Source: Candidatus Gastranaerophilales bacterium
GTDB taxonomy: Bacteria; Cyanobacteriota; Vampirovibrionia; Gastranaerophilales; Gastranaerophilaceae
Reading direction: 5' to 3'
DNA: 64,000 nucleotides
NCBI GenBank assembly: GCA_944325545.1
Contig: CALVAM010000010.1
Span: forward strand, 1-64,000
Of the stretch, positions 10,955 through 34,135 are shown piece after piece; positions within the stretch are counted from its first letter, which is position 1; each line of letters begins with the position of its first letter. The translations under genes and the position numbers were made by a program. Under the pieces are notes generated by a model. That model worked only from the letters and a program-made list of their open reading frames with translations, searched no databases and was not told where the DNA came from.

Positions 10955-10981
10955 TAAAGTTAGAAAAAAAAATGCCGATAT
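10955..10981 (+). promoter_or_regulatory. Sigma-28 (FliA-type) promoter
   Basis: TAAAGTTA at 10955-10962, an 11-bp spacer and GCCGATAT at 10974-10981 match the flagellar consensus TAAAGTTT-N11-GCCGATAA at 14 of 16 positions. It lies 44 bp before the start of the gene at 11026. FliA promoters drive late flagellar genes. Confidence 0.85.
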
Positions 10982-11025: not shown

Positions 11026-12510
11026 ATGGGTATGTCAGCATCACAAGCAAGGTTATTAAGTCTACAAGCTAGACAATCAAATCTTGAATATCAAGGTCAA
11101 CAAATTAACCAAGAAAGAAGTGTGTTATCACAACAATGTACAGCTTTATATAACAGTTTATTGGCTATGTCTGTGCCAACACCTCCTTCTACATCTGATT
11201 ATACAACAATTGAGTATTCAGGTACTGATGGAGCTACAACTTTTACTTTAGGCACAGTAAAGCCTTCTGGAGATTTATATAACGTAGAAATTCAACAAAG
11301 TGCCACAGGTGCTGCAATAACAGCTAACTATGGATCTTCTGTTGTTGGTAAAGCAGGTCAAGATATTACTGTTAATCCTGTTCAGCCAAGTTCTGTTCAA
11401 GGAACAGGCGTTTACGAGGTAAAAAATAGTGAACCTTATCAAGAAGGTGATTTTTATGTTGATAATACAGAAATTTCTGGCGATACTTTAGTTAATAGTC
11501 AAGAAGATGTTTCTAATTATATGGAACGAGTTGCTGATGGCTATGTGCCGGTTGAAAAATTTGAAGCTGGTAAAACTTATGTTAAAAAGACTAGTAAAGA
11601 AGATTATGATGCCGCAGAAGATAAGTCAAAATTCAGTCATTTAAGAGAAAAACCTGAAGAGGTTACTTTGAAAATAAAATCTTCTGACTTAGGTAATTAT
11701 TATGTTAGAACATCATCTGGGGATGTTGCGGCTTTATATGAAGGTTCTCCTTATGTTGTAGCAAATGATGACGGAACATATTCATTAAAGTCTTTGGAAG
11801 GTATTGAATATTTTCAACAAGCAAAAGGCGGTTCAACAACCATTACAAATCCAAATGCAGGTGATACTACTGTAGCTGGTCAAACAGTGTATGATTTTAA
11901 TGAAGCATCTAAAATGGAAGAATTTTCATCATTTGATTGGGAAAAATACAGAGAAGCTATTAGAAATTCATATGGTTCAAGTGATGAAAGTATTACAGAA
12001 GATGATTTTTATGTATTTATGACAACAACTGATACAGGTACAAAGACATTACAATTTGCATTAAAATCTGATGTTGATAGTCCTGATGGATTTGCAGAAA
12101 CTTTTTCTTACACTCCAAATGGTAAATATACAACATCAACTCCAACAGATAAGTGTCAATTAGAGTTTGATTCACAAGGTAGAATTACTAAGATTGGTAT
12201 TCCAACAATTGATGCTACATCAGGAGAAGTTATTTCATACAGATATATTGATTTAATAGCAGAAAAAGTTACAGATGATGCAGCTTATCAAGATGCTTAT
12301 AATAAATATGAATATGCTCAATATGAGTATGATAAAAAACAACAAGAAATTAATGCCAAAACTTCTATTATTCAACAAGAAGATAGAAATTTAGAATTAA
12401 AATTACAAAGACTTGATAATGAAAGAACGCAGATTACAACAGAAATAGAAGCTGTAGATAAAGTAATTAATGATAATATTGAATCCAGTTATAAGACATT
12501 TTCAGGTTAA
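11026..12510 (+). CDS. Sigma-28-controlled protein of unknown function, MGMxASQxRLL family
   Basis: I recognise no known family in this 494-residue protein. It has no signal peptide. The N-terminus (1-50) is a Gln-rich amphipathic helix beginning MGMSASQARLL, the centre (50-410) is Ser/Thr/Gly-rich and beta-like, and the last 65 residues are a coiled coil ending in KTFSG. Both ends match the 482-residue protein encoded at 27801-29249. The helix-variable core-helix layout is that of flagellins and other axial export substrates, and a sigma-28 promoter lies upstream with a strong AAAAGGAGACAG ribosome site. I infer a flagellum-exported or flagellum-associated protein. A GC-rich terminator follows, suggesting high expression as a single gene. 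Confidence 0.85.
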   Translation: MGMSASQARLLSLQARQSNLEYQGQQINQERSVLSQQCTALYNSLLAMSVPTPPSTSDYTTIEYSGTDGATTFTLGTVKPSGDLYNVEIQQSATGAAITANYGSSVVGKAGQDITVNPVQPSSVQGTGVYEVKNSEPYQEGDFYVDNTEISGDTLVNSQEDVSNYMERVADGYVPVEKFEAGKTYVKKTSKEDYDAAEDKSKFSHLREKPEEVTLKIKSSDLGNYYVRTSSGDVAALYEGSPYVVANDDGTYSLKSLEGIEYFQQAKGGSTTITNPNAGDTTVAGQTVYDFNEASKMEEFSSFDWEKYREAIRNSYGSSDESITEDDFYVFMTTTDTGTKTLQFALKSDVDSPDGFAETFSYTPNGKYTTSTPTDKCQLEFDSQGRITKIGIPTIDATSGEVISYRYIDLIAEKVTDDAAYQDAYNKYEYAQYEYDKKQQEINAKTSIIQQEDRNLELKLQRLDNERTQITTEIEAVDKVINDNIESSYKTFSG

Positions 12511-17621: not shown

Positions 17622-19877
17622 TTAAATTTTCTTTAAAATAACAATGCTATTAGGTGCCATTGAAAGATGTTGATTAAGATTTGTTATATCATTTCTTCCT
17701 TTATTTGTAAGGTTTCCTCCACCATATTTAGCATCATCACTATTAAAAATTTCTTCCCAAGTACTATTTTGTGGAAAACCATAGTATTCATAAGTTTTAT
17801 TGTGGAAGCCTGTTCCAAAATTTTTAAGTACTAAAACCTCTTCATCATTAAATTTTAATTGATGTATATGAACATTATGTGTATTATCTTTATAAGTACT
17901 TATAATATCACCTTTAGAAATCGCAGGATTTGTATCTAATAATTTTTTTAAATCTTTATTGTATTCTAACATCTGTAATGATGCGTTTTTGAAGTATCCT
18001 TCATACTTGATTCTGCCAACGATACAATCTGGACGTGCTGTTTCTTCAAGAGTGTCATAACCTTTTTCTTTAATTCTTGCATTTTTAAAATCGTCAGATT
18101 CTTGTCGAACTTTTCTTTCCCCAGTAAATTCCCTAAAGAATTTAAAATGTGATAAATCTCCTGATTCATCTCCTTGAAAATACATTTTAGGGCCGGGAGT
18201 TGTCATGAAAGTTCCTTGAGCTAATTTTTGTTTAGCAAGTGCTGTTTTAAAGGTATTAATTAAATGTTCTTTTGAAATATAAGTTCTAATGCCACAGTCA
18301 TTTAATTTTTGTCTTAGTTGTTCGTCATTAAGTTTTTCAAAATCTTCTGAAACAATTAATTCAGCAAGCCTTTGAGAACTTTGTGCAGCATTTTGTCCTT
18401 TTTCACAATCACCATATCCATCAACGTTGAAAAATAAACCAAGATTTTTTGATAATATTTTTGATATAAGTCTTGTCCCGTCATTATTACCTATATTATC
18501 GTGGCTCATAACATATTTAACTCTATGTAATGAATTTTTTAAATCATTATCAAGGTCATTCATAACTTTTGGATTTATATCAAGAACTGCATCTTGTAAA
18601 GTTTCAATGTATTTAAAATCCCATTCACTGTCAAATCCAATTTCTTGCGGATAGGTATGCCATCTTTGATTTGCAATGTCATCAACGCTTTCATCAATCT
18701 TTCTTAATTCCATTTCATGCGTAATATTATATCTGCTTATATCAGTTACATTTTTTTTGTTATTTCTTCCATCTTCTGCTATTAGAAAAACTTCTGGAGC
18801 GTGTTCATTTACTTCGCCTACAATTTGCTTTAGAAGATAATCAGAATGACAGTGTTGTGTCATATCTAACCTTAGGCCATCAACTTTGAATTCTTTAGCC
18901 CACCAAAGAGCTGCATTTGCCATATAATCCCTAACATACTTATTGTTAAGTCCTTCGTAATTAAATGCACTACCCCAAGAAGTGTGTCCTGCTTCATATG
19001 GTCCGGTTTTTCCTAAATAATTTCCATCTGGACCAATATGGTTTGGAACCATATCCATTATGACATTTAAACCTTTCCCGTGTGCATAGTCTATTAATTC
19101 TTTTAGTTCTTTTGCTGAACCTAAGTTTTTATTTACCGCAAATTTGTCTACACCATCATATCCCCATTGTTTTGAATATGTACCTTCTACCGGCATTATT
19201 TCAATAGCATTGGCTATTTTGTCATTTGCTATTTTATCAATCATTGTGTATGCATTTTTGAAATCGCCTTCTTTAGATATTGTTGGAATGTTTATTTCTG
19301 AAATAACTAAATTTTCTAAACCTCTGAACTTTTCATCAGGTTTTCTTGTTATTCTTCTTGGATCTTTGCCTTCTAGCCAGTTAGTATTTTTCCATTCATA
19401 ATTATCGTGATTATAAATTTCACTCCAACCATGAATATCGTCTTGTTTTTTTGAGTAAGGATCTTTAACTGTATTAATGTTATTATTTTTATCAACTACA
19501 ACAAATCTATATGAAGTTCCAGCTTTAGCATCTATATTGTTAGCTTCATAAACACCTTCTCCATTATGGTTCATTGGATAAATTTTAGAATCTTCATTAA
19601 TTGCTTGAGCAGTAATAACACCAGAAACAGCAGTTGCTATTTTTACTGCTCTATCATGGATATTGCCAAATTTTTTGCTAATATTACTTGCAACTTCTAC
19701 AAATACTGCTTTTGCATCCGGAAATGAAAATAGTTTAAAATTAGTTTTACCTGTTTTTTCAATATAATTTGCACCCCAGCTAACATGTTCTGACCAATTT
19801 CTTTGAAAATTAGGTCTTGTATTGTTTTGCTTTTTTGAATTGTTTAAATTTAATGTCTCTACTCTTTGAATTCTCAT
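17622..19877 (-). CDS. GH13 alpha-amylase-family enzyme, glucan-branching/trehalohydrolase-like
   Basis: This 751-residue enzyme has an N-terminal beta-sandwich (residues 30-150), then a GH13 barrel with all four signature regions: VIMDMVPNHIG, GLRLDMTQH with the nucleophile Asp, VFLIAEDGR with the acid/base Glu, and MSHDNIGN. It therefore should cleave or transfer alpha-glucosidic bonds, perhaps in glycogen metabolism. The exact specificity (GlgB, TreZ or other) cannot be decided. There is no signal peptide, so it is cytoplasmic. An upstream GTG at 19886 is in frame, but a TGTGTGTG tract there lies too near the AAGAAAG site, so I prefer ATG 19877. Confidence 0.85.
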   Translation of the reverse strand: MRIQRVETLNLNNSKKQNNTRPNFQRNWSEHVSWGANYIEKTGKTNFKLFSFPDAKAVFVEVASNISKKFGNIHDRAVKIATAVSGVITAQAINEDSKIYPMNHNGEGVYEANNIDAKAGTSYRFVVVDKNNNINTVKDPYSKKQDDIHGWSEIYNHDNYEWKNTNWLEGKDPRRITRKPDEKFRGLENLVISEINIPTISKEGDFKNAYTMIDKIANDKIANAIEIMPVEGTYSKQWGYDGVDKFAVNKNLGSAKELKELIDYAHGKGLNVIMDMVPNHIGPDGNYLGKTGPYEAGHTSWGSAFNYEGLNNKYVRDYMANAALWWAKEFKVDGLRLDMTQHCHSDYLLKQIVGEVNEHAPEVFLIAEDGRNNKKNVTDISRYNITHEMELRKIDESVDDIANQRWHTYPQEIGFDSEWDFKYIETLQDAVLDINPKVMNDLDNDLKNSLHRVKYVMSHDNIGNNDGTRLISKILSKNLGLFFNVDGYGDCEKGQNAAQSSQRLAELIVSEDFEKLNDEQLRQKLNDCGIRTYISKEHLINTFKTALAKQKLAQGTFMTTPGPKMYFQGDESGDLSHFKFFREFTGERKVRQESDDFKNARIKEKGYDTLEETARPDCIVGRIKYEGYFKNASLQMLEYNKDLKKLLDTNPAISKGDIISTYKDNTHNVHIHQLKFNDEEVLVLKNFGTGFHNKTYEYYGFPQNSTWEEIFNSDDAKYGGGNLTNKGRNDITNLNQHLSMAPNSIVILKKI

Positions 19878-19917
19878 TTTACACACACACTTTCTTTTTA
19901 TACTTATATTATCCTAG

Positions 19918-27800: not shown

Positions 27801-29249
27801 TTATGAGAATATGCTAAAAGTTCTCTCAACGTTATCATTTCTTACAGATTCAATACCTTTAATCATTTCATTAATAGCAGATTGTTCTGTTTCCAAATCT
27901 TGCATTCTAGTATCAATGCGACTTTCTTTTTCATTGATAATACTTTTTTGGTATTCGTATTCTGCTAGAGCTTCATTAGCTGCATCAGAATCATTTACAG
28001 ATATTAAATAATCAAAGTTTGAGGCTATTGAACTGTCGTATTCATAAATTGTCTTACCATCTTCGTCAGTATCTGTATTTACAGTCGTTATGAAATATTG
28101 GTTGTTTTGTAGCATTTGGTTTAAATAATCATTGTCTGATATTTGGTTATTGTATTCCCATCCGTTTTCAGCAATAGCATTAAAAATGCGATCATAGAAT
28201 GCTACTTCTGTAGCATTTGCCGCGGTAAAGACTTGATTGTTATTATCTAGTGCAGTTTGGTACTCTTCTTGTGCAGCACTATATTCGCTTTGCCAAGCAG
28301 GATATTTATTATTTTGCCAATCTAAGTATGTAGAAGAATCTTTATCTCTCCAGGCATATTCCATTGTTCCTCTTTCGTTTTCTTGAACACTGCCGCCTGC
28401 TTCTTCGTATTTACCAAGGATTAATTCCAAAGCTTTTGATACATCTAAATTATAACTTGAATCTTTTAATCTGAGCGGACTGGAATCACTTTCTAGCAGA
28501 TCTTTTGATTTTTCTGAATTGGAGCCTATGTTTACAGAATATTCATCATAAAAAGCACTGCAAGCTGAATTAAATGCTTCTTGGTCATTCTCTGATAAAA
28601 CATTTCCCATGTTTGTTTTTAATTCATTTATAAAAGAACTAAAACTAGATGCAGCACTTGTACTATCTCCTAAATTAAGAGTTCCCCCTTGGGAAATATT
28701 TATTCCGGAAATAGTTCCTGCGTTTGCTAAGAAGCTGCTTGCACTATCATAATTGACAGGTTCTTCTGGTTCTGTCCCTACTAAGTTATTTAAATTTGTA
28801 GTTGCATTTTCTAAAGCTTCACTAGTTTCATTTGCTTTTTCAATTTCCTCTGCTGTGATATTTGGACATAAACTTGCAAGAATTTCTGTTCTTACGGATT
28901 CATAGTCCCCACCAGCTGCTCCATTTGCTGAAATCATTTCTGCATACTTTTTATAAGTGCTGTCAATCATTACAGCTCCATTTGTGTTTGTTAATAAATA
29001 CGGAGTATTATTGTTTGTACTATTAGGTTTCATTAAAGTGTTATAACTTAAGTCAACATAATTAGCTCCGGAATTAGTTGTCCATTTGAAAACTTTTGAG
29101 CTTAAAGCGTTTTGATAATCTTTTGTAACACCTTTCATTTCTCTGGTTAATGACATTTTTTCAGCAGATAAGCTTTGTAGTTGCCTGCCGATATCATTTT
29201 TTCGGCCAGTCAACTGTAAAAGTCTAACTTGTGATGCTGCCATTCCCAT
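27801..29249 (-). CDS. Second MGMxASQxRLL family protein of unknown function
   Basis: This 482-residue protein resembles the one at 11026-12510 at both ends only. The N-terminus starts MGMAASQVRLLQL with a helical Gln/Lys-rich stretch, and the C-terminus is a coiled coil beginning AEYEYQK and ending ERTFSIFS. The core (60-410) is Ser/Asn-rich and acidic and does not align. No signal peptide or membrane helix is present. A sigma-28-like promoter lies upstream, and an AAAGGAAAG ribosome site precedes the start. I infer the same role as its relative: a flagellar-regulon export substrate or axial component. No terminator is visible before ffh, 53 bp downstream. Confidence 0.85.
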   Translation of the reverse strand: MGMAASQVRLLQLTGRKNDIGRQLQSLSAEKMSLTREMKGVTKDYQNALSSKVFKWTTNSGANYVDLSYNTLMKPNSTNNNTPYLLTNTNGAVMIDSTYKKYAEMISANGAAGGDYESVRTEILASLCPNITAEEIEKANETSEALENATTNLNNLVGTEPEEPVNYDSASSFLANAGTISGINISQGGTLNLGDSTSAASSFSSFINELKTNMGNVLSENDQEAFNSACSAFYDEYSVNIGSNSEKSKDLLESDSSPLRLKDSSYNLDVSKALELILGKYEEAGGSVQENERGTMEYAWRDKDSSTYLDWQNNKYPAWQSEYSAAQEEYQTALDNNNQVFTAANATEVAFYDRIFNAIAENGWEYNNQISDNDYLNQMLQNNQYFITTVNTDTDEDGKTIYEYDSSIASNFDYLISVNDSDAANEALAEYEYQKSIINEKESRIDTRMQDLETEQSAINEMIKGIESVRNDNVERTFSIFS

Positions 29250-29286: not shown

Positions 29287-29314
29287 TTTACGGCTTTTTT
29301 TATGTAAAACTTTA
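29287..29314 (-). promoter_or_regulatory. Sigma-28-like promoter
   Basis: On the minus strand TAAAGTTT (29314-29307), a 12-bp spacer and GCCGTAAA (29294-29287) resemble the FliA consensus, with a spacer one base longer than optimal. It lies 37 bp before the start of the second MGMxASQxRLL gene. Confidence 0.6.
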
Positions 29315-32395: not shown

Positions 32396-34135
32396 GTGGC
32401 GTTAACAATCAACACAAATCTTTCCAGTATAATAGCTCAATCATCATTAAAGAGTTCTACATATTCTTTAAATCAAGCAATTGAGAGAATGAGTACTGGT
32501 TTTAAAATAAATCATGCAAAAGACAACGCTGCGGGGTATTCTATAAAAACAAATTTATTGACAAAAATAAATGCCTATAGTGTGGCAGAAGAGAATGCAA
32601 GCTTAGGATTAGAAATGGTATTGACTGCATCAAGCTCATTGTCTATGATGTCAGATTTAACATCTCGTTTAAGAAGTTTAGCAGAACAAGCACATAATGG
32701 CACGTATGGTGCAGATTCTATGAATGCTATTGATTTAGAGGCTCAGTCTATAATAACAGAATTATATAGAATAAAGGAAACCGCTTCATATAATGGTATA
32801 AAATTGTTTAACGATTTTAATAATACTGTTCCGACTTTTGCTGACGGTAGTCAATTAGTACCAAATGCTCAAGGATTTTTGAAAGATATAGCAGTGAAAG
32901 ATACTAGTACAATGGACAAGTTATCTGATGTAGATCCTAATATTGAATTAACAGGAGGAACATATTCAATATCAACAGAAGCGGAGTTGGTGAAATTAGC
33001 TCAAATGGCAAATGCAGGTAAAATAACAGGTAGTTGTGAGTTTGTTTTAGCAAACGATATTGATATAAGTAATTATTGTAAATCAAACCTTGATTCTAAT
33101 GGAGAAGGAGGCTGGAAACCGATAAGTTTATATAATAATTTTATTTTTGATGGAAATGGGCATACTATATTGGGTTTGTATATAAATAAACCTTCTGCAA
33201 ATAATCAAGCTTTGTTTGTTGGCATGGGAAATATAAAAAATTTAGGATTAGTCGAGCCTAGTATTATTGGAAATATTTCCGTAGGAGCATTGTCTGGAAC
33301 TAGTTGGATAAGTTTTGAAAATTGTTATGTTTCTGGGGGGAGGGTGAAAGGGATAAGTTTTGTGGGTGGTTTGGCATCTAATTTGGATAGTGTATTGGTG
33401 AATAGTTGTTATACATCTTGTTCTGTTATTGGAGAAGTTGATGTTGGAGGTATCAGTGGTGGTGGTAAAATATCAACCATAATTAATAGTTATACAAATG
33501 GAGATGTTTCTGGGAATATTAATGTTGGAGGGATTATAGGAGGTGTTGATAAAAATTTTGTTTGTGGAATTCAAAAAAGTGCTGTTTATGGTGTTGTTTG
33601 TGGGCAAAGTAAATCAGGTATTTTTGTAGGAAATATGAATGGTAGTATTTCGAATTGTTTTTATAATGTAAATGTGAATAAAGATTATGGAATAGTTGGT
33701 GAGAATTCACCAACTACAAAGATAACAAATGTTTTGGGTATAAATTTTGGTGCAAAAATTGGATTACAAGTTGGTATAGATTCTTCTTCTAATAGTCAAA
33801 TAAGTTTTGAGGCTTGGTTTGCTTTAGATAGTTTAGATAGATTGAAGAGTAATAGTATGTCAGATGAGAATGTTTTTAGGTACATAGATAATATTCTTAC
33901 ACAGATAAATGAGAAGCAGACCGAATATGGGACAGTACAAAATAGATTAGAAAGTGTTTTAGAGCAGATATCAATATCATACGAGAATTTATTATCAACT
34001 CATTCTACAATAAGTGATGCCGATATTGCGGAGGAAAGTAGCGAATATATAAGGAATCAGATATTGCAGCAGGCAAGTGCTACATTATTATCAACAGCTA
34101 ACCAAAACCCAAGTATAGCATTACAGTTGTTGTAG
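32396..34135 (+). CDS. Flagellin with a GLUG-like beta-helix insert
   Basis: This 579-residue flagellin begins MALTINTNLSSI. Residues 1-145 form the conserved D0/D1 helices (RMSTGFKINHAKDNAAGY and SLAEQAHNGTYG), and about 490-579 the C-terminal D1/D0 helices (DADIAEESSEYIRNQIL, ending in ALQLL). The middle, about 170-470, is not a normal flagellin D2/D3 domain but a run of GLUG-like units such as GGWKPI, NGHTILGL, NVGGIIGG and VGGISGG, expected to fold as a right-handed beta-helix. It is exported through the flagellar channel and polymerises. The start is GTG 32396 after GTGGGGTGAT. No chaperone or hook gene lies nearby. Confidence 0.9.
   Translation: MALTINTNLSSIIAQSSLKSSTYSLNQAIERMSTGFKINHAKDNAAGYSIKTNLLTKINAYSVAEENASLGLEMVLTASSSLSMMSDLTSRLRSLAEQAHNGTYGADSMNAIDLEAQSIITELYRIKETASYNGIKLFNDFNNTVPTFADGSQLVPNAQGFLKDIAVKDTSTMDKLSDVDPNIELTGGTYSISTEAELVKLAQMANAGKITGSCEFVLANDIDISNYCKSNLDSNGEGGWKPISLYNNFIFDGNGHTILGLYINKPSANNQALFVGMGNIKNLGLVEPSIIGNISVGALSGTSWISFENCYVSGGRVKGISFVGGLASNLDSVLVNSCYTSCSVIGEVDVGGISGGGKISTIINSYTNGDVSGNINVGGIIGGVDKNFVCGIQKSAVYGVVCGQSKSGIFVGNMNGSISNCFYNVNVNKDYGIVGENSPTTKITNVLGINFGAKIGLQVGIDSSSNSQISFEAWFALDSLDRLKSNSMSDENVFRYIDNILTQINEKQTEYGTVQNRLESVLEQISISYENLLSTHSTISDADIAEESSEYIRNQILQQASATLLSTANQNPSIALQLL

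Follow-up and report, generated by a model that had tools for sequence, protein, structure and literature searches.

Two genes in a 64,000-nucleotide stretch of a Candidatus Gastranaerophilales bacterium (assembly GCA_944325545.1, contig CALVAM010000010.1, positions 1 to 64,000, hereafter the window) encode proteins that are alike at both ends and unrelated in between. They lie at 27801..29249 on the minus strand (482 aa) and at 11026..12510 on the plus strand (494 aa), and they raise the question of what such proteins are and where they act. Gastranaerophilales are common but poorly studied gut bacteria of the cyanobacterial line. We find that the two proteins belong to a large family of gut Gastranaerophilales proteins that is real, order-wide, previously unnamed and under-described. 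The family is present in every genome examined, including genomes that lack flagellin, where a second flagellar-type export apparatus, here called class B, is the only one found. These results lie outside the window and thus go beyond the first-pass annotation of its sequence. We suggest, with somewhat better than even confidence, that the members serve a type III apparatus as its axial or surface subunits; this apparatus, by which they would be exported, is most likely class B.

The 27801 protein starts with MGMAASQVRLL and ends with NVERTFSIFS, and the 11026 protein starts with MGMSASQARLL and ends with NIESSYKTFSG. In a BLASTP comparison of the two, similarity is confined to both ends: residues 1-70 align with 31% identity (E 3e-6) and the last 63 residues with 32% identity (E 2e-7). 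As a held-out test, hidden Markov models (HMMs) were built for the two ends (the first 45 residues and the last 60) from 70 members, all in public genomes, and the 1107 six-frame open reading frames (ORFs) of the window were searched. Just two ORFs were recovered, 27801 and 11026, each by both ends. The N-end HMM gave E 7e-15 for each protein and 0.47 for the next best ORF, while the C-end HMM gave 8e-16 for 27801, 7e-13 for 11026 and 0.08 for the next best. Chance helices are thereby ruled out as the source of the shared ends, and the first-pass claim that the proteins share their ends and have unrelated cores is stronger than when first stated. Two subfamilies, type I (11026) and type II (27801), are recognisable at the C end, and their profiles align by hhalign over the last 70 columns (probability 99.7, E 2e-25).

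Searches of the source genome (1.82 Mb, 37 contigs) with either window protein and with the N-terminal profile found further members. Six members are full-length, two in the window and one each on contigs C8, C3, C23 and C26. Two more are cut off by contig ends: the C-terminal half is present where C1 begins (L006), and the N-terminal half at the edge of C20 (L009). C8 also encodes a coreless member of 110 aa (E 8e-5). That both contigs break inside a member suggests trouble in assembly with variable or repeated sequence at these points. Across the order, the N-terminal profile matches all 241 of the sampled genomes, with 1-20 matches each, and the members collected from the loci fetched are 108-837 aa long. 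Public genomes yielded 531 confirmed relatives; the 80 that were listed carry the names Candidatus Gastranaerophilales, Melainabacteria or cyanobacterium, or belong to bins whose legacy names say little or are probably wrong. Within the genus of the 27801 protein, its orthologues are 36-73% identical.

Alignment of the 27801 protein with 19 orthologues of its genus (20 sequences) divides it into three parts. Mean pairwise identity is 63% in the N-terminal part (residues 1-134; 28848..29249, minus strand) and 61% in the C-terminal part (residues 341-482; 27804..28229, minus strand), but 28% in the core (residues 135-340; 28230..28847, minus strand), where indels are also present. The ends are therefore conserved as first described, but in these orthologues they are not as short as the first-pass annotation had them. 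It had also raised core swapping, and one swap probably took place. The L083 orthologue is 84-87% identical to L088 and L090 at the N end and 79-82% at the C end, but merely 26-28% in the core. Its core is nearer to that of L081 and L082 (44%), although their ends are more distant. Close ends around a foreign core are what replacement of the core would give.

AlphaFold2 models indicate what the conserved ends may form. The 27801 model (mean predicted local distance difference test score, pLDDT, 86.9; predicted template modelling score, pTM, 0.58) has helices at residues 2-49 and 421-481, and its core is folded and for the most part helical. In the 11026 model (mean pLDDT 65.7, pTM 0.41) the helices are confident and the core is beta-rich at low confidence. 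Here the N-terminal stem helix spans residues 2-47 (11029..11166, plus strand, pLDDT 83-95) and the C-terminal stem helix residues 418-493 (12277..12504, plus strand, pLDDT mostly 82-96). The terminal helices are predicted to pair in both models, a point that the first-pass annotation had put forward for checking. Thus, in the models the ends of the two proteins share one fold, and the cores probably do not.

The paired helices resemble the stems of flagellar axial proteins. Both terminal helices of the 11026 model superpose jointly on the paired helices of flagellin, FlgL and FlgE, and 16 of its top 17 structural neighbours are flagellar axial proteins. These include flagellin filaments (Z 8.7-6.9, root-mean-square deviation (rmsd) 2-3 Å over 105-117 residues), FlgL (Z 8.2 and 6.9) and the hook protein FlgE (3a69; Z 7.7, rmsd 0.9 Å over 59 residues, termini on termini). 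The 27801 model matches flagellin (Z 8.8) and FlgL (Z 8.6) amid many coiled-coil proteins. Because Z values for helical proteins can reflect arrangement alone, these matches show likeness and not descent. Foldseek returned nothing at E<=0.001 for either model.

The first-pass annotation had likened this architecture to flagellins and autotransported fibres. The fixed ends, variable cores, paired helices and flagellin, FlgL and hook neighbours agree with the likeness, but neither membership of the flagellin family nor the autotransporter option is supported. The members have no Pfam match to Flagellin_N or Flagellin_C (PF00669/PF00700), and hhalign of the family profile against three flagellins of the source genome gives a probability of 0.5%, so that no profile homology to flagellin is seen. 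As for the autotransporter reading, no family matched, the C end is a long helix and a hydrophobic N-terminal segment is absent (the hydropathy maximum over 19 residues is 0.65, at residue 173). A Pfam scan of the members gave coiled-coil noise only, and they have no FlgEFG sequence match. The PDB sequence search with the 11026 profile found nothing credible (best 0.16).

Sigma-28-type promoters had been noted at both window genes, and we find a site 5' of each. The 27801 gene has TAAAGTTT-N12-GCCGTAAA at 29287..29314 (minus strand; score 14/16, shuffled maximum 13), and for the 11026 gene a motif scan finds TAAAGTTA-N11-GCCGATAT at 10955..10981 (plus strand). At a threshold of >=13 of 16 over all fetched loci, such sites precede 67/147 members and 5/735 shuffled upstream control regions. 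Other genes reach the threshold in 25/971 cases, among them several members that the name pattern had overlooked and loci fetched for the motif. Members of the flagellin-less genome G060 also carry TAAAG...GCCGTAA sites. Over the whole genome at <=3 mismatches the excess is only moderate (57/57 vs 39/44 for the reversed control); 12 sites in the source genome fit the pattern with no more than one mismatch. Two related large proteins with EF-hand-like loops (L115 and L116; C4:79026 and C4:81581 of the source genome, G000) have near-perfect sigma-28-type promoters upstream, and these are possible further members of the same regulon.

With such promoters, with stems like those of flagellin, FlgL and the hook, and with members that adjoin flagellin genes in the source genome and at L184, the family could consist of accessory parts of an ordinary flagellum, such as cap, junction or decoration. 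These would be exported by the canonical apparatus, class A, and class B would be incidental. We regard this as unlikely on the distribution of the genes. The two classes are defined by the PF00771 score of FlhA, which is about 850-890 bits in class A and about 720-735 bits in class B. A canonical class A FlhA is found in 91/241 genomes (hand count) and about 150 show none, yet the family is in 241/241. It also occurs in 12 tested flagellin-less genomes, often with 7-15 members. Flagellin is missing from 12 of the 13 class-B-only genomes tested, the exception being G094 with one, and all 13 retain the family.

Class B itself is intact wherever it was looked for. FlhA, FlhB, FliP and FliI of this class are kept in all genomes tested (FliP in 20/20; FlhB and FliI each in 12/12). 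Each of FliP, FlhB and FliI occurs exactly once in class-B-only genomes and twice in flagellated ones. In the source genome, the class A flhA is on contig C24 with fliPQR-flhB, and the class B flhA is on C19 after fliE-fliF-X-fliH. For X, a gene of 346 aa between fliF and fliH, FliG was considered and rejected, as no family matched, and the gene is left unnamed. Other class B loci encode a FliN-domain ring protein, FliO, FliQ and FliR. A FliA/WhiG-like sigma gene adjoins the class B flhB in 4/4 loci read (the source genome and three flagellin-less ones). Near the class B flhB of G018 there is also a FlgEFG-type protein (TIGR03506, 119.5 bits, cut-off 70.25), with the same gene in G001, and FliK-like and FliJ-like proteins are close to it in two of these genomes.

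Several observations were made beside these loci. Two genes (L033:8246-9727, on C15 of the source genome, and L208:791-2515) encode proteins in which FlhA is represented by its C-terminal, cytoplasmic part alone, preceded by other domains; the L208 domain resembles the unnamed 346-aa protein, and this gene is near a family member. In several genomes, a small protein with a signal-like N-terminus and no Pfam match is encoded between the class B fliQ and fliR (L246:9216-9620, L247:7491-7859).

Class B might still be a leftover basal body with a minor role, and the family a set of unrelated secreted or cytoplasmic coiled coils that share a flagellar-type sigma factor. Partial flagellar gene sets have been read as motility loss in earlier reports (PMC4040986, PMC3787301), and the linkage between the family and class B is patchy. 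But in flagellated genomes class B is a separate lineage beside a complete flagellar set, and its four core genes have been lost from no genome tested. It is also at least as conserved as class A. In the sampled genomes, FliP identity is 75% within class B, 66% within class A and 42% between them, and the FliP tree separates the two with a support of 1.000. Since FliP is more conserved in class B than in class A and the split is full, class B does not look like decay. We therefore hold a leftover to be rather unlikely.

Class B is also not readily placed in either known branch of type III systems. Its proteins score below the NCBIfam flagellar equivalog cut-offs for FlhA (697<772), FliP (214.5<217.5), FlhB (335<349), FliR (154<169) and FliF (111<130), and only FliE passes (57>30), whereas the class A FlhA (854) and FliP (283) of the same genome are above them. 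They are likewise below the Sct cut-offs (SctV 586<692, SctR 190<209, SctU 311<358, SctN 544<605). Thus, FliE aside, class B falls under both sets of cut-offs, and it is nearer to the flagellar ones.

These scores bear on the idea that the members are effectors, or tip or translocon-like proteins, which class B delivers into or onto other cells in the manner of an injectisome. In some genera, an operon of a large variable protein, a conserved partner with hydrophobic segments and small helical proteins would suit this idea, with the 272-aa partner as the membrane-inserting part. The 27801 profile also gave a weak match to IpaD in the PDB sequence search (E 8e-4, one profile only), and IpaD rows appear in Foldseek for the 27801 model. 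But the IpaD match was lost with a core-only profile, for which VPS28 came top at 0.02, and no Foldseek row is better than E 0.25; IpaD is kept as a weak lead. In the class B loci read, with no dedicated search of the genomes, neither a secretin nor a needle gene was recognised, and class B is under all of the Sct cut-offs. We consider such delivery very unlikely.

The operon in question consists of a large member, genes of 272 and 90 aa and a coreless member. It is about 2-15 kb from the class B fliE-fliF-X-fliH-flhA genes in genera g2, g4 and g8, whose loci were read, and in g10, as judged by coordinates alone. Elsewhere, a member is divergent from and adjoins fliN-like-fliOPQR (L225), and another immediately follows flhB and the sigma gene (L197). 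The 272-aa partner (272-285 aa; L034:7901-8758, L070:4584-5402) is 61-69% identical across genera, is rich in glycine, contains hydrophobic segments, has a conserved C end that looks helical (NIETVCKMLDTQ), and matches no family.

We infer a route by which axial or surface subunits of class B would come to their place. The members, which have no Sec-type signal, would leave the cell unfolded through the flagellar-type gate. Outside the cell, the N- and C-terminal helices would pair into a stem, and the stem would dock on or polymerise with an external structure, like D0/D1 of the hook, FlgL and flagellin. The unrelated cores would then face the gut environment. Class B, the only such gate found in flagellin-less Gastranaerophilales, would export the members, and these would form its external parts.

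Several points weigh against this proposal. Sequence homology to axial proteins is absent in the Pfam, hhalign and PDB sequence searches, the flagellar matches of the 27801 model are interspersed with, or preceded by, generic coiled coils, and a paired-helix arrangement alone can yield Z values of the level seen. The promoter is mostly missing from the large operon-type members. Linkage to class B is not universal and is absent in the source genome; an export-type gene is present in 5/80 public loci, where about 2-3 are expected by chance, which is not significant. Members adjoin flagellin in flagellated genomes (L035, L184), and in these genomes the ordinary flagellum could be the exporter. 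Given the relatedness of the genomes, the lack of significance over the 80 loci and the members next to flagellin genes, linkage alone cannot decide the exporter. The occurrence in flagellin-less genomes is the stronger argument.

Comparison with known systems helps to place the family. It is similar to flagellin (FliC) and FlgL/FlgK in having conserved ends as a paired-helix stem, a variable middle and sigma-28-type promoters, and the hypervariable middle of flagellin is altered by recombination (PMC7018530). It differs in having no Flagellin_N/C domain or profile similarity, in occurring in flagellin-less genomes and in reaching about 20 matches per genome. With the hook and rod proteins FlgE/F/G it shares terminal helices that, in 11026, fit FlgE D0 (3a69), with a beta-rich part beside the stem, but the sequences do not match and the core folds vary between members. 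Class B can be compared with the flagellin-less basal bodies of Buchnera (PMC8109811), which also keep gate, rod and ring proteins in a host-associated bacterium. Class B differs from these in three ways: part of the order has it together with a complete flagellar set, it forms a separate deep lineage, and there are candidates for substrates of its own. It likewise resembles the early non-flagellar type III systems of the Myxococcales type (PMC3459982) in having a type III core and an incomplete flagellum formerly annotated as a relic. It differs in keeping FliE and a FlgEFG-type protein, in scoring nearer to flagellar than to Sct models, and in belonging to a cyanobacterial-line order.

Two other features of the neighbourhood were seen. 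The window contains a flagellin gene at 32396-34135 (plus strand; Flagellin_N match), one of nine flagellin matches in the source genome; the long middle of this gene resembles GLUG-type glycine-rich repeats. Many source-genome proteins carry a short N-terminal extension with an NFKG/SFKA-like motif, for example the branching-enzyme-like protein at 17622-19886 of the window and those at L037:1674-2831, L278:3934-8775 and L079:8600-9091. This may be an N-terminal signal that they have in common.

Earlier papers appear to have taken class B genes for a decaying flagellum. In the available portions of these papers, the single-scaffold MEL.A1 genome is described without filament, cap, junction and outer rings, with ongoing reduction proposed (PMC3787301), partial flagellar sets are called non-functional, with repeated loss inferred (PMC4040986), and a termite species has a fuller flagellar set (PMC5877343); two separate systems are not distinguished there. 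Our literature search, which covered few subscription papers and no preprints, found no type III system described for the order. What is new here is the second, divergent and well-conserved export apparatus in every genome tested, and a family that is kept without flagellin. Going further, we give slightly less than an even chance to an independent, order-wide conversion of a flagellum into a non-motility type III organelle. It would be distinct from flagella and Sct injectisomes, with an external fibre or tip built from a stem-conserved, core-swapping family that mediates contact in the animal gut. Flagella are known to have been exapted (PMC3459982). If the Gastranaerophilales do have an export organelle that is separate and conserved and has a variable surface family of its own, they would add to the natural instances of a flagellum becoming a non-motility machine, a question raised in that work. 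The finding would also offer a specific candidate for the means by which these bacteria make contact with hosts or neighbours.
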